Part shown: positions 37,737 through 51,995 of the stretch, one piece after another | How the letters are laid out: each line of letters begins with the position of its first letter | Numbering within the stretch: position 1 is the stretch's first letter | DNA from: Candidatus Tectimicrobiota bacterium | GTDB lineage: Bacteria > Tectomicrobia > Entotheonellia > Entotheonellales > Entotheonellaceae | DNA: 64,000 nucleotides | Reading direction: 5' to 3' | Assembly: GCA_026005175.1 (NCBI GenBank) | Contig: BPKO01000002.1 | Location: 32,501 to 96,500 of the forward strand | Position numbers and translations under genes: made by a program | Notes under the pieces: model-generated | The model's database searches: none | Told to the model about the DNA's origin: nothing | Seen by the model: the letters and a program-made list of their open reading frames with translations, nothing else

Positions 37737-37768
37737 CTTCAGGAAAGGCCTCTAGACGAGGGACGAGT

Positions 37769-38893
37769 ATGCAGCACAACGTGGAATGGAAAGAGATCCC
37801 ACCGCAACGCTTGCCGCAGCTACAGGAGGTCTTCTCCCGCCACGTGCAGGCGCTGGCCGAGCAGGTGGCCGATTTTCCTCCGGATGCCGTGTACCTGCAC
37901 GCCGTGGTTGCCCAGCACCCGCAGCGGCCGCTCGCCCGTGTAGGACTGACCCTGCACCTGCCCAAGCGCGTGCTGTCGGCCCGCGAAGAGCGCGACGACG
38001 TAGAGACCGCCTTGCATGAGGCCTTTGCCGAACTCGAGCGCCAGCTGGCAAAACACAAGGCCTTCCTGCGCCAGGAGCACCTCTGGCGGCGGCCGGCCCG
38101 GCGGCAGGCGCTGCGGGAGCGGCTCAAGCTGGAGTCAGTGCCGCTTGCCGAGCGCGAGCGCGCCTTGCTCAACGTCCTCATTCAGCAGCACCTGCACAAG
38201 CTTTACAACTTTGCCCGCCGCGAAATTGCCGTGCTGCAAGCCACGGGCGACTTGCTTCCGGGCGACCTCACCCCCGAGGAGGTGGTAGACGCGGTGGTGC
38301 TGCGCGCCGCGCGCGAGCTGCACACGCGGCCGCCGCGCCTGGAGGGAGACCGCTGGCTGCTGCGCCTTGCCGTCGAGGTACTGCGCAGCGAAGTGCGGCG
38401 GCGCCGGGCAGAACGGGCGGCGGCGCTGCACCTCGAGCAGCCAGCGCCGCCCGATAGCCAGACCTCTGACGACGAAATCTACGCATTTTACCAACCCGAC
38501 GAAAAGCTGCGGCTGGAAGACCTGGTTCCCGACCCCTATATGCCCACCCCGGAGGAAGTGGTGGCCAGTCGTGACTTGCAGCGCTACCTCAACCAGACGC
38601 TGGCCATGCTGCCCGCCACCTGGCGGCAGGCGTTTGTGTTGCACGACATCGAGGGGTGCACGGTGGCCGAAACGGCCCACATCCTGGACGTGTCCGAGGA
38701 AGAAGTGCGGCAGGCCTTAGACCACGCCCACGCCTTCCTGCGCCAGAAGCTGGCCGAAGCGGAGCTCCAGCCGGCCCCGGGGAGGACCATCACCGCCGAG
38801 CAGTTTTTTGCCAGCACCGCCCAAGTCGAGGTGCCAGAGGCCTACCGTACTGCCCTCGAAGACCGGCTGCGCCCTTCGTCAGAGGCGGGGTAG
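37769..38893 (+). CDS. RaiA/HPF-like domain fused to sigma-70-like regions
   Basis: This 374-residue protein joins two normally separate modules. Residues 1 to about 102 resemble the ribosome-hibernation factor RaiA/HPF, especially ARVGLTLHLPKRVLSAREER and ALHEAFAELERQLAKHKAFL. Residues about 130-205 look like sigma region 2 (LHKLYNFARREIAVLQATGD, LTPEEVVDAVVLRAAREL). Residues about 278-340 are a clear sigma region 4 helix-turn-helix (LPATWRQAFVLHDIEGCTVA, ETAHILDVSEEEVRQALDHA). It may couple ribosome state to transcription, or the sigma part may be a protein-interaction or RNA-binding module; both are inference. It converges with the proteostasis island. Confidence 0.75.
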   Translation: MQHNVEWKEIPPQRLPQLQEVFSRHVQALAEQVADFPPDAVYLHAVVAQHPQRPLARVGLTLHLPKRVLSAREERDDVETALHEAFAELERQLAKHKAFLRQEHLWRRPARRQALRERLKLESVPLAERERALLNVLIQQHLHKLYNFARREIAVLQATGDLLPGDLTPEEVVDAVVLRAARELHTRPPRLEGDRWLLRLAVEVLRSEVRRRRAERAAALHLEQPAPPDSQTSDDEIYAFYQPDEKLRLEDLVPDPYMPTPEEVVASRDLQRYLNQTLAMLPATWRQAFVLHDIEGCTVAETAHILDVSEEEVRQALDHAHAFLRQKLAEAELQPAPGRTITAEQFFASTAQVEVPEAYRTALEDRLRPSSEAG

Positions 38894-39174: not shown

Positions 39175-39374
39175 CGTCCCGCTCCTTCTCGATGGTGCCC
39201 GCCAGCTTCCGCCGCGGCCGGCCGCGGGGCCTGGCGGTCCGCAGCCGTTGCCGCCGTTTCCAAGGGGGCTCCGGGATCGTAGGGCCTTTGGCAAATGTGG
39301 CAGACGCGGGGGCGGCCGGGATGGGCCGGCGCGGGAAGGGTGAAGAGCTTACAGTAGCGGCACCAGCGTTTCAT
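39171..39374 (-). CDS. Small zinc-ribbon protein
   Basis: This 67-residue protein begins MKRWCRYCKLFTLPAPAHPG and has two CxxC knuckles (CRYC and CHIC, in RPRVCHICQRPYDPG), typical of a zinc ribbon. The rest is a low-complexity Ala/Arg-rich tail. It overlaps the stop of the protease gene upstream (ATGA at 39374-39371) and the start of the four-Cys gene downstream, forming a tightly coupled trio at the end of the proteostasis island. Confidence 0.6.
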   Translation of the reverse strand: MKRWCRYCKLFTLPAPAHPGRPRVCHICQRPYDPGAPLETAATAADRQAPRPAAAEAGGHHREGAGR

Positions 39375-40228
39375 GGCGCTTCCCCCAGCACGTCGTGCAT
39401 CCGGCGCCCCGAGTTGCCCGAGCGCCGCGGAATAGGCAAGTACTCCACGGAAGGCGAGCGCCGCACCGGCTGGGGAAACAGGCGCATGAGCTGGAGCACT
39501 TCCTTGGGCATGTCGGCGCTCACCGGCAGGCCAAGCTGCTGGGCCATGGTAAAGGTGATGGGGTAGTCGTGCGTCCAGGTGCCTTCGGAAAGCAAGCGCG
39601 CCAGCTGCTCGGCCTTCTCTTCCGGGTAGCGGTCGCCAAGGAGCTCGCGCACGCTCTCGCGCACTTGGGCAATCGCCTTTTCGGCCTGATCGGCGAGAAT
39701 CAGCGTCTGGTCGTCCAGCTCGGCCACCGGCTTGCGGGCCACGGCTTTGAGGATCGAAGCGGCCGGAAACTGCCCCAGCTGCGGATCGACGGGTCCGAGC
39801 ACCGAGTGGCGGCACATGACGATTTCGTCTGCAGCCAGGGCGATCAGCGTGCCGCCCGACATGGCGTAGTGCGGCACGAACACCGTCACTTTGGCCGGAT
39901 GGTCTTTGATGGCGCGGGCGATCTGCAGCGAAGCCAGCACCAGCCCCCCAGGGGTATGCAAGATCAGGTCGATGGGCACGTCCTTGTCGGTCATCTGCAC
40001 GGCACGCAGGACTTCTTCGGAGTCGTTGACATCGATGAAGCGAAAGACGGGAAAGCCCAGCAGGCTCATCGTTTCCTGCCGGTGCACGAGAAGGATCACC
40101 CGCGAGTTGCGCTGCCGCTCGAGGCGTGCCAGCATCCGCTGCCGTGCCGCTTCCAGCATTTTCTGGCGCAGAATCGGCTGCAGGGCGGAGATCATGAAGA
40201 ACAGCCAGAAAACGTCCAAAGGTCCCAT
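39371..40228 (-). CDS. Membrane-anchored ClpP/SppA-fold serine protease (SDH proteinase family)
   Basis: This 285-residue protein starts with a hydrophobic anchor (MGPLDVFWLFFMISALQPIL) and a helical linker. Its crotonase-like core has LILHTPGGLVLASLQIARAI and the putative nucleophile Ser in VPHYAMSGGTLIALAADEIV, followed by GPVDPQLGQFPAASI and THDYPITFTMAQQLGLPV. This matches the serine dehydrogenase proteinase (PF01972-type) group related to ClpP and SppA. The anchor suggests degradation at the membrane. It follows the rhomboid protease gene by 21 bases. Confidence 0.85.
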   Translation of the reverse strand: MGPLDVFWLFFMISALQPILRQKMLEAARQRMLARLERQRNSRVILLVHRQETMSLLGFPVFRFIDVNDSEEVLRAVQMTDKDVPIDLILHTPGGLVLASLQIARAIKDHPAKVTVFVPHYAMSGGTLIALAADEIVMCRHSVLGPVDPQLGQFPAASILKAVARKPVAELDDQTLILADQAEKAIAQVRESVRELLGDRYPEEKAEQLARLLSEGTWTHDYPITFTMAQQLGLPVSADMPKEVLQLMRLFPQPVRRSPSVEYLPIPRRSGNSGRRMHDVLGEAP

Positions 40229-40249: not shown

Positions 40250-40978
40250 TTACCACCGCATGAAGGCCCGCTCGATGTCGTACTCGTCGTCCTGAAAGGG
40301 ACGCCGAGGGGGTACGAAGAACGGGCGCAGGGCGATGCCGGCGGCAAAGCCGCCGATGTGGGCCCACCAGGCAATCCCGCCCACTTGCCCGGCGGCGGCC
40401 AGCGACAGCACGCCGCTAAAGAGCTGACTCACAAACCACATCCCTAGATAGAACACGGCCGGAATTTCGACAAAGAACGGCCAGAAAAAGACCGGCACCA
40501 GGGCAATGATACGTGAGTGGGGGAAGAGCAGAAAGTATGCTCCCATAACGCCGGAAATGGCTCCGGAGGCGCCCACGGTGGGCAGCGTGGAGTGGGGGTT
40601 GGTTAGCCAGTGCACCAGGCCGGCGGCCAGGCCGCAGAGAAGGTAAAAGAGCAAAAAGCGCAAAGGGCCCATGCGGTCTTCGACGTTGTCGCCGAAGATC
40701 CACAGCGTCCACATGTTGCTCAGGAAGTGCAGCCAGCCACCGTGCAGAAACATGCTGGTCAGAAACGGCCAGTAGTCGTCCAGGGGAAGTCCAAAGACCA
40801 CCGCCCACTCGGGATGCGTGTAGCGCGCCGGCACCAAGCCGAAGCGGTAGAAAAAGGCTTCCAGCTCTGCTTCGGACAGCCCCAGCTCGTAGAGAAAGAC
40901 CAGGGTGTTGGCGGCAATCAGCAGCCAGACCATAAGCGGCGGCTGGCGGCTGGGAATGGTGTCTTTGACCGGAAACAC
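40250..40978 (-). CDS. Rhomboid family intramembrane serine protease
   Basis: This 242-residue protein has six or more hydrophobic segments. The catalytic Ser is in TVGASGAISGVMGAYFLLFP and the catalytic His in WWAHIGGFAAGIALRP; upstream are TSMFLHGGWLHFLSNMWTLW and the WR-like loop region. Rhomboids cleave transmembrane substrates. GTG 40978 is chosen because AGGAGAAGGGG lies directly upstream; the frame is open further. It is followed by the SDH-type protease, giving two membrane proteases in a row. Confidence 0.9.
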   Translation of the reverse strand: MFPVKDTIPSRQPPLMVWLLIAANTLVFLYELGLSEAELEAFFYRFGLVPARYTHPEWAVVFGLPLDDYWPFLTSMFLHGGWLHFLSNMWTLWIFGDNVEDRMGPLRFLLFYLLCGLAAGLVHWLTNPHSTLPTVGASGAISGVMGAYFLLFPHSRIIALVPVFFWPFFVEIPAVFYLGMWFVSQLFSGVLSLAAAGQVGGIAWWAHIGGFAAGIALRPFFVPPRRPFQDDEYDIERAFMRW

Positions 40979-41011
40979 CCCCCCTTCTCCTGGAAAGGCT
41001 CCTTGCAACGA

Positions 41012-41039
41012 GGCGGGGCACACCGCGGTGTGCCCCGCC
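41012..41039. other. Perfect 28-bp palindrome between clpB and the rhomboid gene
   Basis: The 28 bases are identical to their own reverse complement, centred on CCGCGG; each arm is GGCGGGGCACACCG. It lies 41 bases past the clpB stop and about 34 bases before the rhomboid start on the minus strand. It lacks a T-run. It could stabilise or attenuate the transcript or bind a dimeric protein. Confidence 0.7.
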
Positions 41040-41080
41040 GCGGGTTGCCAGGGCAAGCGGATGCAGAACCGCCTGCGCCC

Positions 41081-43756
<2,676 letters not shown>

Positions 43757-43761
43757 GGTTC

Positions 43762-44095
43762 TCACCTCCGCTGTTCTTCACGTGGCTGCATGGCGTAGGC
43801 TTGCAGCTGTTGCACGCGAGCTTCGAGTTCTTCGATGCGCTCGAGCAGATCCAAAATCAGCCCGGCAGCGCTGTAGTTAATGCCCAGGTCCCGCCCGCAG
43901 GCGCAGCACGCGGCGGATTTTGAGTGTGACCTCGGGCGGAAACAACTCGGCATAGCCCTCGGCCGGGTCGATCACCCCCAAAGCCACCAGACGCTGCACC
44001 AGCAGCGGGTGGAGGCCGCAGCGTGCTGCCACTTCCTCCAGGGTCAGAAGGTTCCACGGCCGCTGCCGGGGCACCAGACAGGCGATCCGCGTCAT
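43762..44095 (-). CDS. cbpM: CbpM-like chaperone modulator (MerR-type HTH), one frameshift
   Basis: It starts [20 protein letters not shown], with [20 protein letters not shown] forming a MerR-type helix-turn-helix, then [13 protein letters not shown]. One extra G near 43900 breaks the frame; the other frame continues [20 protein letters not shown] and a coiled coil [13 protein letters not shown]. This is the layout of CbpM, a specific inhibitor of CbpA-type DnaJ proteins, and it directly follows the dnaJ/cbpA-like gene, as in the classic cbpA-cbpM pair. Restored length is about 110 residues. Confidence 0.82.
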
Positions 44096-44110
44096 CGTCT
44101 CTCCCTCCCC

Positions 44111-45059
44111 TCAGCGCGGGCGTGGCTTGAAGTGCGACACCCGGGGCCAGCTCGGCAAAGAGCCGCGCTTCTTCGGGCGTGAGCTGCTCGGGCACGACGA
44201 TTTTGAGCTCAGCGTAAAGGTCCCCCGGCCCCGTGCGCGGATCGGGAAAGCCCTTGCCGCGCAGGCGGATCTTGCGTCCAGAGGAAGAGCCGGGCGGGAT
44301 CTTCACGCTCACCGCCCCTTCCAGGGTGGGCAAGGTAATCTCCGCGCCCAGGGCCGCCTCCCACGGGGTAATGGGCACTGTGGTGTAGAGATCCTTGCCT
44401 TCGAGGCGGAACGTGGGATGCGGCAGCAGCTCGACCACGAGGTAGAGGTCGCCCGGCGGTGCCCCGCCCGTTCCCGGTCCGCCTTGCCCGGCCAGGCGGA
44501 TGCGCTGGCCAGGCCGCACCCCTTTGGGGATGGTAACCATGAGCGTCTTGCTCTGGCCGGTGACGGGATCGGTGAGCGAGATCTCTCGCTGGCCGCCGCG
44601 CGCGGCTTCTTCCAGGGTAAGCGCCAGGCGGGCTTCTCGGTCCTCGCCCCGCGCCCACCCACTCCCACTGCCAGCCGCGGGGTCCGGCACCGCGGCCGGC
44701 CCGGCGCCCGCCGGTACCAAAGAGCTGCTCGAAGAGCGAGCCAAACCCGGAGAAGAGGTCTTCGGCGCCGGCGCCGCGGCCCCACATCGAACCACACCTC
44801 TTCGTAGCCCGGTGGTGGGGTGCCGCCTTCCTGCGCTGCTTTCCAGGCTGCCCCGTAGCGGTCGTACTTGGCGCGCTTTTTCGGGATCCTTGAGCACCTC
44901 GTAGGCTTCGCCGATTTCTTTAAACTTTTCCTCGGCGCCCGGATCCTTGTTCACGTCCGGGTGGTACTTGCGCGCCAGCTTGCGGTATGCCCGGTGGATC
45001 TCTTCCTGGGTGGCGTTCCTTGGCACCCCCAAGATGGCGTAGTAGTCCTTGAAAGCCAT
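44111..45059 (-). CDS. dnaJ: DnaJ/CbpA-type co-chaperone, several frameshifts
   Basis: The J domain is intact ([20 protein letters not shown], with HPD in [20 protein letters not shown]). The Gly/Phe linker (about 44,700-44,880) is broken by at least two indels. The C-terminal peptide-binding domains read [40 protein letters not shown] and [20 protein letters not shown]. No CxxCxGxG zinc fingers are present, so it is CbpA-type. A last indel near 44,143 hides the natural end VSHFKPRPR and TGA at 44,113-44,111. It lies between dnaK and cbpM. Confidence 0.87.
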
Positions 45060-45113
45060 GCCTGCTCTCCTCGGGAGCCGCGCTTTGCAGCGTCACCGTG
45101 CGCTCGGGGGCCA

Positions 45114-45144
45114 GACCCCCACCCCGGGCGAAGGGGCGGGGGTC
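45114..45144 (-). other. G+C-rich stem-loop between dnaK and dnaJ
   Basis: Two 12-base arms (GACCCCCGCCCC and GGGGTGGGGGTC on the minus strand) pair with one G-U around a seven-base loop, in the 93-base dnaK-dnaJ spacer. It may set the dnaK:dnaJ transcript ratio by attenuation or mRNA protection. No T-run follows. Confidence 0.45.
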
Positions 45145-45152
45145 GCCAGGCG

Positions 45153-47027
45153 TCACTTCTTCTCGGTAAAGTCGGCATCCACCACGTCTTCGCCGCCCGC
45201 GCTGCGGCTGCCGGCGGCCGCACCCGCCCGCCGGTAAGCAGAAGCACTGAGCATGTGCAGCATCTGCTCCAAGTCGCTGGCCAACTCGCGGATACGGGAG
45301 ACCGGCGCGTTCTCTTTTAGTGCCGTGCGCACGTCGGCCACCAGCTGTTCGGCACGCGCCTTTTCGTGCAGCGGCACCTGCTCGCCCATCTCGCGCAGGG
45401 TGCGCTCTACCTGGTAAGCCAGGGAGTCGGCGTGGTTGCGCAGCTCGATCTCCTCGCGCCGCGCCTTGTCTTCGGCCGCATGCGCCTCGGCTTCGCGGAT
45501 CATGCGTTCGATCTCGCTCTTGTCGAGGTTGGTGCTCCCCGAGATGGTGATTTTCTGCTCCTTGCCCGTGTCCTTATCGCGGGCGGTGACGTTGAGGATG
45601 CCGTTGGCATCGATGTCGAACGTCACCTCGATTTGCGGCACGCCGCGCGGTGCCGGCCGGATGCCTTCGAGCCGGAAGCGGCCAAGCATGCGGTTGTCTT
45701 TGGCCAGCTCGCGCTCGCCTTGCAGCACCACGATGTCTACCGCCGTCTGGTTGTCCTCGGCGGTGGTGAAGATTTCGGTGCGGCGTGCCGGAATGGTGGT
45801 GTTGCGCTCGATGATCTTGGTCATCACCCCACCAAGCGTCTCCACTCCCAGCGACAGCGGTGTCACGTCCAGCAGCAAGACGTCGGAGACCTCGCCCTTG
45901 ATGATCGCCGCCTGCACTGCGGCGCCCAGCGCCACCACCTCGTCGGGGTTGACGCTCATGTTGGGTTCCTTGCCGCCGGTGAGGCGCTTTACCAGCGCCT
46001 GCACGGCCGGCATGCGCGTGGCGCCGCCCACCAGGATCACCTCGTCGATGTCCTTCTCGGTGAGCTTGGCATCGGCCAGCGCTTGCTTCACCGGCCCCAG
46101 GCAGCGCTCGACCAGGTCATGGGTGAGGGCTTCGAACTTGGCCCGCGTCAGGGTCATGTTGAGGTGCTTGGGCCCGGTGGCATCGGCGGTGATAAATGGC
46201 AGGCTGATCTGCGTCTGCGCCGCGCTCGAAAGCTCGCACTTGGCCCGCTCTGCCGCCTCCACCAGCCGCTGCAAGGCCTGCGGGTCCTTGCGCAGCTCGA
46301 TGCCGTGTTCTTTCTTGAACTCCTCGGCCAGCCAGTCGACGATGCGCTTGTCGAAGTCGTCGCCACCCAGGTGGGTGTCGCCACTGGTGGCACGCACCTC
46401 GCACACCCCCTCGCCGACGTCGAGGATGGAGACGTCAAAGGTACCGCCGCCCAAGTCAAAGACCATCACCGTTTGGTGCTGCTTTTTGTCCATGCCGTAA
46501 GCCAAGGCCGCGGCAGTGGGCTCGTTGATAATGCGCAGCACGTTGAGGCCGGCGATGGTGCCGGCATCCCGCGTGGCTTGCCGCTGCGCGTCGTTGAAGT
46601 AAGCCGGCACGGTGATCACCGCCTCGGTCACCTTTTCGCCCAGGAACTTGGAGGCGTCCTCCACCAGCTTGCGCAGCACCATGGCCGACACCTCTTCCGG
46701 GGCGATGAGCTTGCCGTGCACTTCGAAGCGTACGGCGTCGTTGGGGCCGCGCACCACTTTGTAAGGCACGTTCTTGATCTCGTCCTGCACTTCGTCCCAC
46801 TTGCGGCCGATGAAGCGCTTGGCCGAGAAAATCGTGGCTTTGGGGTTAAGCACCGCCTGGCGCTTGGCGATTTGCCCCACCAGGCGCTCGCCGTCTTCTT
46901 TGAAGGCCACCACCGAGGGCGTCACCCGCCCCCCTTCGGCGTTGGGGATAATGGTCGGGCGGTCGCCCTCCATGTAAGCAATGGCCGAGTTGGTGGTTCC
47001 CAGATCGATTCCTACGGCTTTAGCCAT
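45153..47027 (-). CDS. dnaK: Chaperone protein DnaK (Hsp70)
   Basis: This 624-residue Hsp70 reads [20 protein letters not shown], with [20 protein letters not shown], the phosphate loop [16 protein letters not shown] and adenosine motif [13 protein letters not shown]. The interdomain linker [19 protein letters not shown] leads to the substrate-binding domain and lid. The C-terminus ends [12 protein letters not shown], as in normal DnaK. ATG 47027 follows GAGGAGGAAG. It is intact, unlike its neighbours, and sits between degP and dnaJ in the island. grpE is not in the window, which suggests that this may be a second, dedicated dnaK. Confidence 0.95.
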
Positions 47028-47065
47028 ATGACTTCCTCCTCTCTGGCATCCTCGCTGTCCGTCAC

Positions 47066-48500
47066 TCAAGGCGAATGACGATGAAGTGAGTGGCCCCCGC
47101 GGTACTCGACCAGCAAGAGCACCCGCTCTTTTGACTTGGCCAGGGCTTGCAGGAACGCTTCCGTGTTGCGCACCGGGGTGCGGTTGACCTCACGGATGAG
47201 CATCCCGGGGCGCAGACCAGCCATGGCGGCGGGGCTGCCAGGCTCGACCTCGGAGACGATGACGCCCTCCGCCTCCTCGTAGCCGAAGCGCTCCGCCATC
47301 TCCGGGGTCAAGTCCTGGACAGCAAACCCGAGCCGCTCAAGGAGCTCTTCCTCAGCAGGCGCTGCCGCCATCTCTTCGGGCAGTTCGCCAATCGTCACGG
47401 TAAGCTCTAGCTGCCGGCCGTTGCGCACCACGGTCACCGTCGCTTTCGTGCCCGGCGGGGTGAGCGACACCGTGTTGCGCAGGTGGGCGGCGTCTTTGAC
47501 CAGCGTGCCGTCAAAGGCCACGATGACGTCGCCGCGTTTCAGCCCGGCCTTGTCCGCTGGCGAGTCCTTGATAACGTCGGCCACCAGCACCCCTTCGCTG
47601 CGCTCTAGCCCGAACGACTTGGCTAGGTCTTCGGTCAAGTCCTGAATGTGAACCCCCAGATAGCCGCGCACCACCTTGCCCCGGGTGATCAGCTGCTGCT
47701 GGATCACCTTGGCCATATTGATGGGAATGGCAAAGCCGATGCCCATGTAGCCACCGCTGCGGGAGAAAATGGCGGTGTTGATGCCGATGACTTCACCGCG
47801 CAGGTTGAGCAGGGGGGCCGCCCGAATTGCCGGGGTTAATGGCGGCATCGGTCTGGATGAAATCTTCGTAATCGACGATGCCCACGCGGCTGCGTCCCTT
47901 GGCGCTTACCACCCCCACGGTGACGGTGTGGACAAGGCCAAAGGGGTTACCCACCGCCACCACCCACTCGCCCACTTCCAGGGCATCGGAGTCGCCCAGG
48001 GGCAGGGTGGGCAAGTTGTCGTCTTTAATTTTGATCACCGCCACGTCCGACTTGGGGTCGGTGCCGATCAGCTTGGCTTCATACTCGCGGCCGTCGGCCA
48101 GCTTGACGGTGATGCGGTCTGCTTCCCCCACCACGTGGTGGTTGGTAAGGATGTAGCCATCTTGCGAGACAATGAAGCCCGAGCCCTGCCCCATCTGCCG
48201 GAAGCGCCGCGGCTGCTGCGGGAAGCGCCAGCGGAAGAAGCGGCGGAAGAACTCCTCGTTAAACAGATCAAACGGGTCCTCAAAAGGGCCGCGGCGCTCG
48301 ACGGTCCTCTCTACCTGGATGTAGACCACGGCCGGGATGGCCTGCTTGGCCACTTGCGTAAAAGCCTGCGACAGCTGCTGCACGGCCTCGGACTGGGCCG
48401 GCAGGGCCGCTGCCGGCCGGCCAAGGCCGGCAGCGGCCAGAACTGCCGCGGCCAGGGCCAAACAGACACGTGCCTGATGCGCGAGCCGGATCCGTTTCAT
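47066..48500 (-). CDS. degP: Periplasmic serine protease DegP/HtrA, one frameshift
   Basis: A signal peptide ([20 protein letters not shown], cleavage near ALPAQS) is followed by a trypsin-like domain with His in [15 protein letters not shown], Asp in [16 protein letters not shown] and Ser in INPGNSGGP. The frame breaks right after this motif near 47,815 (one extra base in GGGGGGCC); it resumes [20 protein letters not shown]. Two PDZ domains follow ([20 protein letters not shown] and a second starting [18 protein letters not shown]). Restored length is about 477 residues. It degrades or chaperones misfolded envelope proteins. Confidence 0.9.
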
Positions 48501-48528
48501 AGCGAGCCTTTCCTTGTTGCCTTTTGTT

Positions 48529-48999
48529 TCAGCCGCGGATTTTCACCTTGATGCGCCGTGCCTTGGCCTGCTCGGTCTTGGGCAAGGTGACGCGCAGGAC
48601 GCCGTTTTTGTACCGGGCAGTAGCGCGGTCGGCGTCTACCTCGCAGGGCAAGGGCACGGTGCGCACAAAAGCGCCGTAGCTGCGCTCGGCGTAGTAGTAG
48701 TGCCGGCCTTTTTCTTCGGCGCTGCGGCGCTTTTCGCCGCGCAGCACCAAGTAGTCGCCGGTCACTTCCACGGTGAAGTCGTCTTTGTCCAGGCCGGGAA
48801 GCTCGGCCACCACGATGACCTCGTCGTCGGTTTCCTCGAGATCAATCAGGGGTCCACCGCCGATGATCAGCGACGGCGCCCAGAATTCCTCATCCTCCGG
48901 CGCACGGCGCCGCGGCAGCCAGCGGTCCAGCACGCGGTGAATGTCGTCCCGCAGGCGCGAAAGCGCCTGTCGCCATGGAACAGGAAGCCACTGTGCCAT
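48529..48999 (-). CDS. Small heat-shock protein Hsp20 (third of three)
   Basis: This 156-residue sHSP has an alpha-crystallin domain ([20 protein letters not shown] to [12 protein letters not shown]) and a C-terminal I-K-V motif (RRIKVKIRG). The N-terminal arm is Arg/Trp-rich. sHSPs hold unfolding proteins for refolding by DnaK and ClpB, encoded downstream. It differs clearly from the other two Hsp20 copies here, so it is not a recent duplicate. Confidence 0.92.
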
Positions 49000-49056
49000 C
49001 CTCTTTCCTCCTCTGCGTGCGGCCTGGGCAGGACAGTGCCTGCCCAGGCCGAGTTG

Positions 49057-49455
49057 TTACGCCACTTTTACTTCGATCTTGCGCGGCTTGGCCTCCTCTG
49101 CCTTGGGCAGGTGGAGGGTCAAGACGCCGTGCTTGAGTTCTGCCGTAATGCGGGATTCGTCGATTTTTTCCGTGAGCTCGAACTGCCGGAAGAAGTTAAC
49201 CAGCTCGTATTCGCGGTAAATGGGGTCGGCCTGCACCGCGGGCCGCGCCCGACCGCGAATGGTCAGCACGTGGTTGTCAACGCGCACTTCCAAGTCGTCT
49301 TTGCTCACCCCTGGCAAATCGGCCATCACCACCAGTCCCTCAGGGGTCTCGTAGATGTCCACCGGCGGCGCCACGTAGCGCTCCCGCTCCCGGGTGCCTT
49401 CTGCCGTGGGCGCCACCTGCTGCGTCTGCTGGGTTGCCACCGTCCGTTCTACCAT
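49057..49455 (-). CDS. Small heat-shock protein Hsp20 (second of three)
   Basis: This 132-residue sHSP has a Gln/Thr-rich N-terminal arm (MVERTVATQQTQQVAPTAEG), an alpha-crystallin domain with VDIYETPEGLVVMADLPGVS and LKHGVLTLHLPK, and a C-terminal I-E-V motif (RKIEVKVA). ATG 49455 follows AGGAGGAAC; a longer frame adds seven residues. It lies between the other two Hsp20 genes. Confidence 0.92.
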   Translation of the reverse strand: MVERTVATQQTQQVAPTAEGTRERERYVAPPVDIYETPEGLVVMADLPGVSKDDLEVRVDNHVLTIRGRARPAVQADPIYREYELVNFFRQFELTEKIDESRITAELKHGVLTLHLPKAEEAKPRKIEVKVA

Positions 49456-49481
49456 CGCCGTTCCTCCTGTGCACAATGCGG

Positions 49482-49934
49482 TTAGGAGACCTGCACGTTA
49501 ATTTGCTTGGGTTTGACACGTTCGGCCTTGGGCAGGGTGACCACCAGCAGGCCGTTTTTGTAGTCGGCCCTCACGTTGTTCTCGTCCACCTCGAGCGGCA
49601 GCTCGATGGTGCGCACGAAGCGGCCCGTGGCGCGCTCGCTGCGGTGGAAGGCCTCAGGCCTGACATCCTCCGGCACCCGCCGCTTTTCCCCGGCCAAGGT
49701 GAGGGTGTTGCGCAGCACCGAGATATCCAGCGAGGCCGGATCCACACCTGGCGCCAGCGCCTCCACATAGAGGGCGTCGCGGTCGGCGTAAATGTTGACC
49801 AGCGGGTAGCGCCGTGCGGCACGCCCGGGCAAAAACGCAGTGCGGAAAAAGGGCTCGGTACGGAAGCCAAAGTCTTCAAAGGCGCGGTCGATTTCGCGCC
49901 GCAGCGCCTCCATGGTTTCCCACAAGTCAGCCAT
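49482..49934 (-). CDS. Small heat-shock protein Hsp20 (first of three)
   Basis: This 150-residue sHSP begins MADLWETMEALRREIDRAFE, then FFRTAFLPGRAARRYPLVNI, an alpha-crystallin domain ending YKNGLLVVTLPKAERVKPKQ and the C-terminal I-N-V motif. A strong GAAGGAGGTGAG precedes the ATG. It is the first gene behind the sigma-54 promoter at 50006-50023, with a leader of about 60 bases. Confidence 0.93.
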   Translation of the reverse strand: MADLWETMEALRREIDRAFEDFGFRTEPFFRTAFLPGRAARRYPLVNIYADRDALYVEALAPGVDPASLDISVLRNTLTLAGEKRRVPEDVRPEAFHRSERATGRFVRTIELPLEVDENNVRADYKNGLLVVTLPKAERVKPKQINVQVS

Positions 49935-50005
49935 CGTTGCTCACCTCCTTCTGCTGGCGTTGTCGCTTGCCGCCCCGCGCGGGGAGGGCTTCCGCCACCA
50001 AGTGT

Positions 50006-50023
50006 AAGCAAGAGGCGTGCCAA
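50006..50023 (-). promoter_or_regulatory. Sigma-54 (-24/-12) promoter of the hsp20-degP-dnaK operon
   Basis: On the minus strand the sequence is TTGGCACGCCTCTTGCTT. It matches the sigma-54 consensus TGGCACG-N4-TTGCW at every fixed position, with GG and GC at the required ten-base spacing. Transcription would start near 49,995, about 60 bases before the first Hsp20 ATG. The gene for a GAFTGA-type sigma-54 activator lies just upstream, at 50432-51995. Confidence 0.88.
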
Positions 50024-50082
50024 CTCTGTAAGTCGTTGATAATTCGAGTTTTTTCAATTCTCCCGATTGCAATCCGGGGCAG

Positions 50083-50135
50083 TGCGACGTCGCGTGCGAC
50101 GTCGCAGCGTTGCGTGCGACGGGTTGCCTGCGACG
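50083..50135. promoter_or_regulatory. Repeated TGCGAC boxes, putative enhancer (UAS) for the sigma-54 activator
   Basis: Two copies of the palindrome GCGACGTCGC (50084-50093 and 50096-50105) are followed by two direct repeats, TTGCGTGCGAC (50110-50120) and TTGCCTGCGAC (50125-50135), 15 bases apart. They lie about 90-140 bases upstream of the predicted sigma-54 start, the usual distance for enhancer sites. The binding protein is inferred to be the adjacent regulator. Confidence 0.6.
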
Positions 50136-50139
50136 GGCG

Positions 50140-50439
50140 TCAGAGGCCGCAGTCGCGCAGGCGCTGGAGCAACTCGGCCGGGGTGGCACGCCCGATGAGG
50201 CGAAAGAGGGGGCGGCTGCGGTAGTAGACGACCAAGGCGGGCGAGCCGTAAATGCCGTGAGCTTGCGCCCAGTCGCGGCAGTCGGCCAGGGCAAGGCGAA
50301 AGACCGGCACGCGTCCGAAGCGTTCGATGTCGCGCAGGAGACGGTCCATCTCGGTGCCCGGCGCGTGATCGTCTTCCCAGACAACGACCACTGCCAGACC
50401 CGCATAGCGGCGGAGAAACGCCTCCAGCTCGTCAAGCAT
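50140..50439 (-). CDS. Thioredoxin-fold protein without CxxC
   Basis: This 99-residue protein has a thioredoxin-like pattern: [20 protein letters not shown] in place of the W.xxCGPC loop, [20 protein letters not shown], and the cis-Pro segment [20 protein letters not shown]. The active-site Cys pair is missing, so it cannot be a standard disulfide reductase. It overlaps the end of the sigma-54 regulator gene by eight bases and so is co-expressed with it. A chaperone-like or sensor role in the stress regulon is inference. Confidence 0.7.
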
Positions 50440-51995
50440 GGCCTGACTCCGAGGGCACCGTGCCGGCTTGAGCCATGGCTTCGAGGTCGGTACGGGTCAT
50501 GCCCAGGGCTTTCAGGTGCCGGTAAAGCGTGGCCTTGTGCACGCCCAGCCGGCGCGCGGCCGCCGTCAGGTTTCCGCCTGTCTGACAAAATGCCGCGGCA
50601 ATCCGCTCGCGGGTGAGCGGCGCCTGCCGCACGGCCAGCGGGCGGCGGTCGACGCGCGTGGCCGGCTCGGCTGCGGCCGCTTCCGACAGCGCCGAGAGGG
50701 CAGGCAGCGCGGCCCGCGCCGGCGGCGGCGGCACCAGGGGGGACGAGGCCACCCGTCGCGTGGCGACGTTCCAGGCGCCGGGGAAGAAACGCCAGCGCTC
50801 TTCTACCCATTCCTCAAAGGCGCGGCGCCCGATGACCTCTCCCGTGGCTTCCACGTAGACGCGCTCGAGCACGTTGCGCAGTTCGCGCACGTTGCCGGGC
50901 CAGCTGTAGCTCTGCAGCAACGCAATCGCCTCGGGGGTCAGGCCGCGCACGGGCCGCCCGTATTTTTGCTGCAGCTGCTTCAGGAAGTAGGCCACCAGCA
51001 GCGGAAGGTCTTCCAGGCGCTCGTGCAGCGGCGGCATGTGCAGGCGCAAGACGGCCAGGCGGTGGTAGAGGTCGGCACGAAACGTGCCGCGCTCTACCGC
51101 CAGCTCCAGCGGCACGTTGGTGGCGGCAATGAGGCGGACGTCAACGGGCAAGGGCTGCTCGGCGCCCACGCGTTCGATCACCCCCTCTTCGAGCACCCGC
51201 AGGAGCTTGGCCTGCGTCGTCACGGGCAGCTCGCCGATCTCGTCGAGAAAGAGGGTACCGCGGTGTGCCCGCTCGAAGCGTCCCTTATGGGTGCGGATGG
51301 CACCGGTAAAAGCGCCGCGCTCGTGGCCGAACAGTTCCGATTCCAGCAGTTCGCTCGACAGGGCGGCGCAATTGACTGCCACAAAGGGCTCTTCGCGGCG
51401 GGGACTGCAGGCGTGGAGGGCACGGGCTGCCAGCTCCTTGCCCGTTCCGGTCTCGCCGGTAATCAGCACCGGCGCTCCCGTGGGACCGTACACCTCGATT
51501 TTACGGATGACGGCGCGCAGCGCGGCCGAGCGTCCCACCAGCCCGTAGAAGTCGCGCACCGCCGGCGACTCGACGGTGACGGCCGGGGGCCGCGACTTCT
51601 TCCAAGCGCAGGGCCACCACGGCTTGCAGCGCCGCCGCTCGCCGCAGCCTGAGTCCAGCCTGCACCAGCACGGTGCGCGGGGTGCCGGTGGCGTCGCGGA
51701 AGCTCAGGCGGTAATCGCGCACCGGGAACCCTGAGGCCAGCACTTCTTCAACCACCACGCCGAGCCCGGGAATGATCGGTTCCACCGTCTCGGCCAGCGG
51801 ACGCCCGCGCAGTGCCTCGACCGGGCGGCCGGTCCACGCCGCCACGTGTGGCGCCACCTCTTCCACCACCGGCGTGCCGTCGTCAAGAAAGGCGACGATG
51901 AGCTCCGGCGTAATGGGCGCCAGCGGCGCCGCCTCCTGCGCGCGCCTGATGGGTGCCAGGCGCCCTGCTGGCTTCTCTGTCGGCATGGGTTCCAT
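50432..51995 (-). CDS. Sigma-54-dependent transcriptional activator (PAS-AAA-Fis HTH), one frameshift
   Basis: The N-terminal 130 residues form a PAS-like sensor ([40 protein letters not shown]). One extra C near 51,590 (GGCCCCCGGCC) breaks the frame; it resumes [20 protein letters not shown]. The AAA+ domain has Walker A GETGTGKE, the sigma-54-contacting GAFTGA loop, Walker [11 protein letters not shown] and [17 protein letters not shown] Fis-type HTH ([20 protein letters not shown]) ends the protein. No receiver domain is present, so the signal is probably a ligand or redox state sensed by PAS. It most likely drives the sigma-54 promoter at 50006-50023. Confidence 0.9.

Follow-up and report, generated by a model that had tools for sequence, protein, structure and literature searches.

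The passage of an idle-ribosome signal to transcription has mostly been explained via small molecules, such as ppGpp. Among the described systems closest to the gene reported here, PhyR has the proper ECF structure, its promoter and polymerase regions being degenerate, and titrates an anti-sigma factor (review, PMC8103513). The available part of a 2026 study on HPF/RaiA evolution describes long HPF, HPF/RaiA and HibA, an archaeal CBS-RaiA fusion, and that part contains no mention of a sigma fusion (PMC13324472). As described in the accessible portion of the Balon paper, Balon operons hold RaiA, Hsp20, HdeD, DnaK/J and 'alternative sigma70 factors', and no passage in that portion treats RaiA and sigma as one protein (PMC10901736). 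A full-text literature search gave no description of a RaiA-sigma fusion; most subscription papers lay outside its reach, so an earlier notice is possible.

The fusion gene and its two halves

The window, the whole stretch of 64,000 nucleotides analysed here, carried on its plus strand an open reading frame of 374 aa (37769-38893), identified by ORF and sequence reading and conserved as full-length homologues in other genomes. GAGGGA, a sequence resembling a ribosome-binding site (37758-37763, plus strand), was located 5 nt before the ATG, and a promoter/terminator scan of the fusion locus gave no signal above chance. The product consisted of a RaiA/HPF (S30AE) domain (residues 1-107, 37769-38089), a basic linker (WRRPARR...; residues 108-126, 38090-38146), a sigma2-like helical domain (residues 127-222, 38147-38434), an acidic sigma2-sigma4 linker assigned from the net charge of this region in the family (residues 223-267, 38435-38569), a sigma4-like domain with a degenerate recognition helix (residues 268-332, 38570-38764) and a C-terminal tail (residues 346-367, 38804-38869), all on the plus strand.

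In the N-terminal half, Pfam S30AE (PF02482) matched residues 25-98 with 33.5 bits against a cut-off of 23.7 (E 7e-8), and it was also detected in eight of nine family members, the ninth being without its N-terminus. The fusion scored below the cut-off of the NCBIfam HPF/YfiA equivalog TIGR00741 (33.2 vs 40.9 bits). A PDB search with a profile of nine homologues matched solved HPF chains over residues 1-127 (E 3e-11), and the AlphaFold model of the window protein had the beta-alpha-beta-beta-beta-alpha fold of RaiA at residues 2-107. Structural alignment of this model with HPF/RaiA chains gave Z of about 15 over 90-99 residues (rmsd 1.4-1.7), as seen for Vibrio HPF (4hei; Z 15.2 over 90 residues, rmsd 1.4) and the RaiA of the Balon-bound Psychrobacter ribosome (8rd8; Z 15.1). 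The basic residues R91, K97 and R101 at the end of the second RaiA helix were conserved across the family alignment. The RaiA half as a whole was basic in most members and had a net charge of 0 in the window protein. During stress, this half would occupy the decoding site of ribosomes that are idle.

In the C-terminal half, Pfam Sigma70_r4_2 matched residues 273-319 (37.8 bits, cut-off 25.7, E 1.5e-9), and the NCBIfam model TIGR02937 (sigma70-ECF) covered residues 134-328, region 2 included, with 57.6 bits against a cut-off of 42.9. The latter model matched all nine family members examined. The profile of nine homologues also matched solved ECF sigma chains over residues 259-331 (E 1e-14) in the PDB search. 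The AlphaFold model (mean pLDDT 79, with input alignments of four sequences only) contained three long helices at residues 128-222 and a sigma4 helix bundle, with low pLDDT in both the basic RaiA-sigma2 and the acidic sigma2-sigma4 linker. It aligned with the ECF sigma RpoE from the NepR complex (5uxx) at Z 15.8 over 156 residues across sigma2 and sigma4 (rmsd 3.1), with SigW bound to RsiW at Z 12.6 and with PhyR at Z 12.1, and a second predicted structure, that of the J050 homologue, gave the same picture. An ECF-type sigma2-sigma4 module is thus complete at residues 127-332. The sequence-only reading had proposed a hibernation-factor-like N-terminus of about 100 residues, a C-terminal sigma region 4 and a plausible region 2. 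The Pfam, PDB-profile and structural matches bore out the first two, and the third was confirmed by the extent of TIGR02937 and by the structural match spanning sigma2 and sigma4; the comparison with RaiA structures that it had suggested also turned out in its favour. As the fusion scores above the cut-off of the ECF model and below that of the HPF equivalog, automatic annotation would probably label it simply 'sigma-70 family RNA polymerase sigma factor'; this could be the reason that the fusion has been overlooked.

To tally the contact residues of the sigma half, 14 members of the family were aligned with plain ECF sigma factors from the same searches (16 sequences, a small set picked by similarity to the query). 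The Gln of region 2.2, the beta-prime clamp contact known from sigma70 Q406, was present in 16 of 16 plain ECFs, whereas 13 of 13 family members had Asp at this position (D174 in the window protein; 0/16 in the plain ECFs). The Asn of region 2.3 was kept in only one of 14 members versus 14 of 16 plain ECFs. The Ser and Arg of the -35-recognition helix in region 4.2 were lost in all 14 members, whereas the plain ECFs retained them in 12/16 and 13/16 cases, respectively. The mean net charge of this helix was +0.2 in the family and +4.4 in the plain ECFs (p 2e-5); the corresponding values were -3.4 and +1.7 for sigma4, and -11.8 and -3.6 for the linker region. The core-fold positions LP, R286, A303 and A320 were retained in the family. 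The strongest conservation was seen in an acidic motif of the sigma2-sigma4 linker, YQPDExLRLEDLVP (residues 241-254, 38489-38530, plus strand).

This alignment showed that the canonical polymerase- and promoter-contact residues were lost from the sigma half with the fold kept, and the pattern of loss, as judged from the aligned residues, is that of PhyR-type sigma mimics. The proposal that ribosome state and transcription initiation would be joined in one polypeptide accordingly stood in its architecture, a conserved union of RaiA, sigma2 and sigma4, but was weakened with regard to initiation by the fusion itself, the contact residues being replaced and the recognition helix near neutral. The structural comparison suggested for the sigma part had the same divided outcome, as the fold was present but the polymerase- and DNA-contact surfaces were degenerate.

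Family and genomic neighbourhood

A scan of genome contigs with the window sequence alone yielded no relatives; these were retrieved once the G004 homologue was aligned with it. Full-length or end-truncated homologues were found in metagenome-assembled genomes labelled as Acidobacteria (J050, 51% identity), Nitrospirae (J031) and Nitrospinota (J063, identical to G004), and genome searches added further fusions in G101, G367, G219, G348, G352, G387, G389, G410, G420, G427 and G048. The fusion was present in 15 genomes including that of the window, which belonged to at least five of the phylum-level groups used in the genome searches: those of the window, G367, G219 and G352, and that of G048 outside these four. 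Approximately 7 genomes (2%) of a 385-genome sample had a full-length fusion. Complete copies each consisted of one ORF of about 317-374 aa, and one of them was in a single-contig genome. The window genome does have frameshifts, in HtrA and ClpB, which could raise the suspicion of a weak domain match or of two genes joined by assembly error; this explanation was refuted by the recurrence of the fusion as one ORF in independent assemblies across these groups, and its probability is negligible. Similarity of G035 (L005/L055) and L042 was confined to the sigma part, and these candidates were rejected as fusions. Two species of one genus (G351 and G222; L073 and L075) had a version of about 226 aa with RaiA and a sigma2-like part and without sigma4.

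For the RaiA part, median pairwise identity between members was approximately 0.28, and for the sigma domains it was 0.26-0.37. The identity matrices of the two halves were strongly correlated (Mantel r 0.86, reached in 0 of 2000 permutations), and this divergence in step suggests that the halves were joined once, long ago, and have been passed on together. Of the 13 genomes tested, 12 had a further S30AE gene apart from the fusion, indicating that the fusion is an accessory paralogue. In the window genome, a whole-genome search found two S30AE genes, the fusion and an S30AE/cold-shock-like protein elsewhere. The latter (L001, G000:C2:300242-300526, minus strand), with S30AE and a cold-shock-like C-terminus, was adjoined by a gene for baeRF10 (G000:C2:300905-301321), which we take to be the domain family of Balon-like proteins, and the same pair occurred in G001 (C144).

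From the window alone, the gene had been described as ending against a proteostasis island. Indeed, it converged at a distance of 477 bp on a ClpP-like SDH-type serine protease (39371-40228, minus strand; PF01972, E 2e-118), next to which were a rhomboid protease (40250-41056, minus strand; Pfam, E 2e-39) and the rest of the island (41081-50439, minus strand), comprising ClpB, DnaJ, DnaK, HtrA, three Hsp20-like proteins and a thioredoxin-like protein. The HtrA gene (47066-48500, minus strand) occupied two frames, with the break near 47814-47839, and was intact in G004, and that of ClpB (41081-43765, minus strand) was split over several frames; these breaks are probably sequencing indels in the assembly, not real pseudogenes. 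Upstream of HtrA, the three Hsp20-like coding stretches lay in a row (48538-49934, minus strand). At the far end of the island, the small thioredoxin-like gene (50140-50439, minus strand) was overlapped by a sigma54-type activator with AAA+ and Fis domains and without a receiver (50432-51559, minus strand).

The proteostasis setting proved to be conserved, as Hsp20, FtsH, GroESL, SDH protease, rhomboid and baeRF10 genes often flanked the fusion at other loci. The SDH protease also neighboured the fusion in L039, L072 and L077, and a rhomboid gene was two genes away in L072. The gene order in J050 was Hsp20, SDH protease, a weakly DUF308/HdeD-like membrane protein, FtsH, RaiA-sigma, ZAS (zinc finger, see below) and baeRF10; that in G004 was RaiA-sigma, baeRF10, two Hsp20 and HtrA; and that in G367 and G101 was GroES, GroEL, RaiA-sigma, ZAS and baeRF10. 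In G048, baeRF10, rhomboid, SDH protease and RaiA-sigma were on one strand within about 4 kb. The baeRF10 gene was within about 3 kb of the fusion in all five of G004, J050, G101, G367 and G048. Neither proteostasis nor baeRF10 neighbours were present in the flanks examined in the G219/G348 group.

Anti-sigma genes and the C-terminal tail

A gene for a small HxxxCxxC protein was located directly behind the fusion in J050, J031, G367, G101 and G219, and behind a truncated copy in G078, giving six ZAS loci (L039, L040, L050, L051, L062 and L068; L039, L050 and L068 correspond to J050, G367 and G078, respectively). In J050, the ZAS start overlapped the stop of the fusion (ATGA). As zf-HC2 was matched in five of the six proteins (best 3.7e-8) and their profile matched RsiW at 4e-5, and RsrA and ChrR more weakly, the small proteins were read as soluble ZAS anti-sigma factors. 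These results demonstrated that a soluble ZAS-type anti-sigma factor is encoded directly behind the fusion in several lineages. In G078 (L068, 1238-1917, minus strand), the sigma part was absent, and the ZAS gene came immediately after an ORF that encoded RaiA alone; this copy looks like an internal deletion, and its ZAS had lost the first Cys. About half of the members had no ZAS gene nearby (e.g. L053, L064-L067 and L072). In the window, the first 900 bp downstream of the fusion contained no ZAS reading frame, and the G004 locus likewise yielded no ZAS gene.

The C-terminal tail of the window and G004 proteins resembled the C-terminal segment of ZAS (FFASTAQVEVPEAYRTALEDRL vs MFGTAARVEVPPSLRRRVRERV). 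The window tail aligned with the ZAS of J050 and G367 with scores above all 1000 shuffles, and so did the G004 tail. For the ZAS of L068, the shuffle test gave 805/1000 with the window tail (no match) and 6/1000 with that of G004 (a match), so that the case for homology of the tail depends on the remaining ZAS sequences. The tail was not attributed to a frameshift artefact, because the independent G004/J063 assembly has it too. We infer from these alignments that the tail may be a ZAS fused in cis, with the zinc finger lost.

Possible roles and relation to known systems

As a tentative but quite possible reading, the fusion would be a ribosome-docking sigma-mimic adaptor that arose from an accessory hibernation paralogue and binds an anti-sigma factor. 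The sigma-like half would serve as a protein-binding decoy holding the ZAS partner, and docking of the RaiA half would alter this grip so that the real stress sigma factor is freed or sequestered. Ribosome idling might thereby be relayed to proteostasis genes, such as those for Hsp20, FtsH, GroESL, the SDH protease and Balon. In the window lineage, where the zinc finger would be gone and a tail similar to the C-terminal helix of ZAS fused in cis, the module may either be locked or act through a different partner.

The adaptor was favoured over a promoter-reading sigma factor because the sigma contact residues are degenerate as in PhyR. The latter, in line with the sequence-only proposal of initiation by the fusion itself, would be a genuine ECF sigma factor that reads an unusual promoter, is held by ZAS and is tethered through RaiA to idle ribosomes, and it would transcribe the proteostasis island on stress. 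The score above the NCBIfam ECF cut-off, the full sigma2-sigma4 fold and the ZAS gene in the fusion's own operon, as for a real ECF sigma factor, all agree with it, the last of these counting against the adaptor, and 'alternative sigma70 factors' are reported in Balon operons in the accessible portion of that paper (PMC10901736). Nevertheless, the absence of the region 2.2 Gln from all members, together with the loss of the region 2.3 and 4.2 contacts and of the recognition-helix charge, and the version without any sigma4 in one genus (L073, L075) make a true sigma factor rather unlikely. Still less probable is a hibernation factor without a transcriptional role, whose sigma fold would be a structural module contacting the ribosome, Balon or another factor. 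The nearby Balon/baeRF10 genes in five genomes, the joint presence of RaiA and Balon on the ribosome in the solved structure 8rd8, and archaeal HibA, in which RaiA is fused to a CBS module contacting the large subunit according to the available part of its description (PMC13324472), are consistent with such a module, but the ZAS anti-sigma genes at six loci would then be pointless. The protein could also be a tether between RNA polymerase and the ribosome, with RaiA in the decoding site and the sigma-like half on the core polymerase without promoter opening, by which both machines would be parked under stress. The sigma-like half would occupy the core polymerase through the acidic linker YQPDExLRLEDLVP, which in ECF sigma factors would run into the polymerase cleft and RNA exit channel; we consider this tether improbable. 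The conserved acidic linker would likewise suit polymerase contact and to that extent counts against the adaptor, as do the members without a nearby ZAS gene, the window included, and the fact that a cognate free sigma factor was not identified near the fusion loci.

A polypeptide that combines a domain for ribosome idling with one resembling sigma, and is kept across deep lineages, would amount to a direct protein link to transcription, and the fusion, often located beside heat-shock genes and an anti-sigma gene, may convey the state of ribosomes to the control of stress genes. Compared with HPF/RaiA (S30AE) proteins, the fusion has the fold, an above-cut-off Pfam match and the basic C-terminal helix in common, but does not keep the classical Asp-Leu-Tyr motif of HPF. 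Where long HPF has a C-terminal dimerisation domain, the fusion has its sigma module, and the long-HPF dimerisation family was not among the Pfam matches of the fusion and family members up to E 1. Archaeal HibA, as far as described in the available part of the study, is similar in that RaiA is fused to a regulatory module, but this is a CBS module in archaea, in contrast to a sigma module in bacteria (PMC13324472). The fusion loci contain the same neighbourhood genes as the Balon/baeRF10 stress operons described in the accessible portion of the Balon paper (PMC10901736).

With ECF sigma factors of the SigR-RsrA and SigH-RshA type, the fusion shares the sigma2-sigma4 fold and, at six loci, the ZAS gene directly downstream. 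Fusion to a regulatory domain is common to ECF41 and other ECFs, whereas the canonical contact residues are lost in RaiA-sigma; the ECF reviews searched, one of which was PMC8103513, mentioned no ECF with a ribosome-binding domain. PhyR resembles the fusion in its ECF sigma fold with degenerate contacts and in its small soluble anti-sigma partner, and the best structural match of the fusion was the EcfG-type RpoE in complex with NepR. No receiver domain was found among the Pfam matches of the fusion and family members, and no EcfG-like gene was seen in the flanks examined around the fusion loci. The input of PhyR is a C-terminal receiver and that of the fusion an N-terminal RaiA; the partner of PhyR is NepR, whereas the candidate partner of the fusion is a ZAS zinc finger. 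The RaiA and sigma parts are each known, and what is new is their union, with a degenerate sigma.
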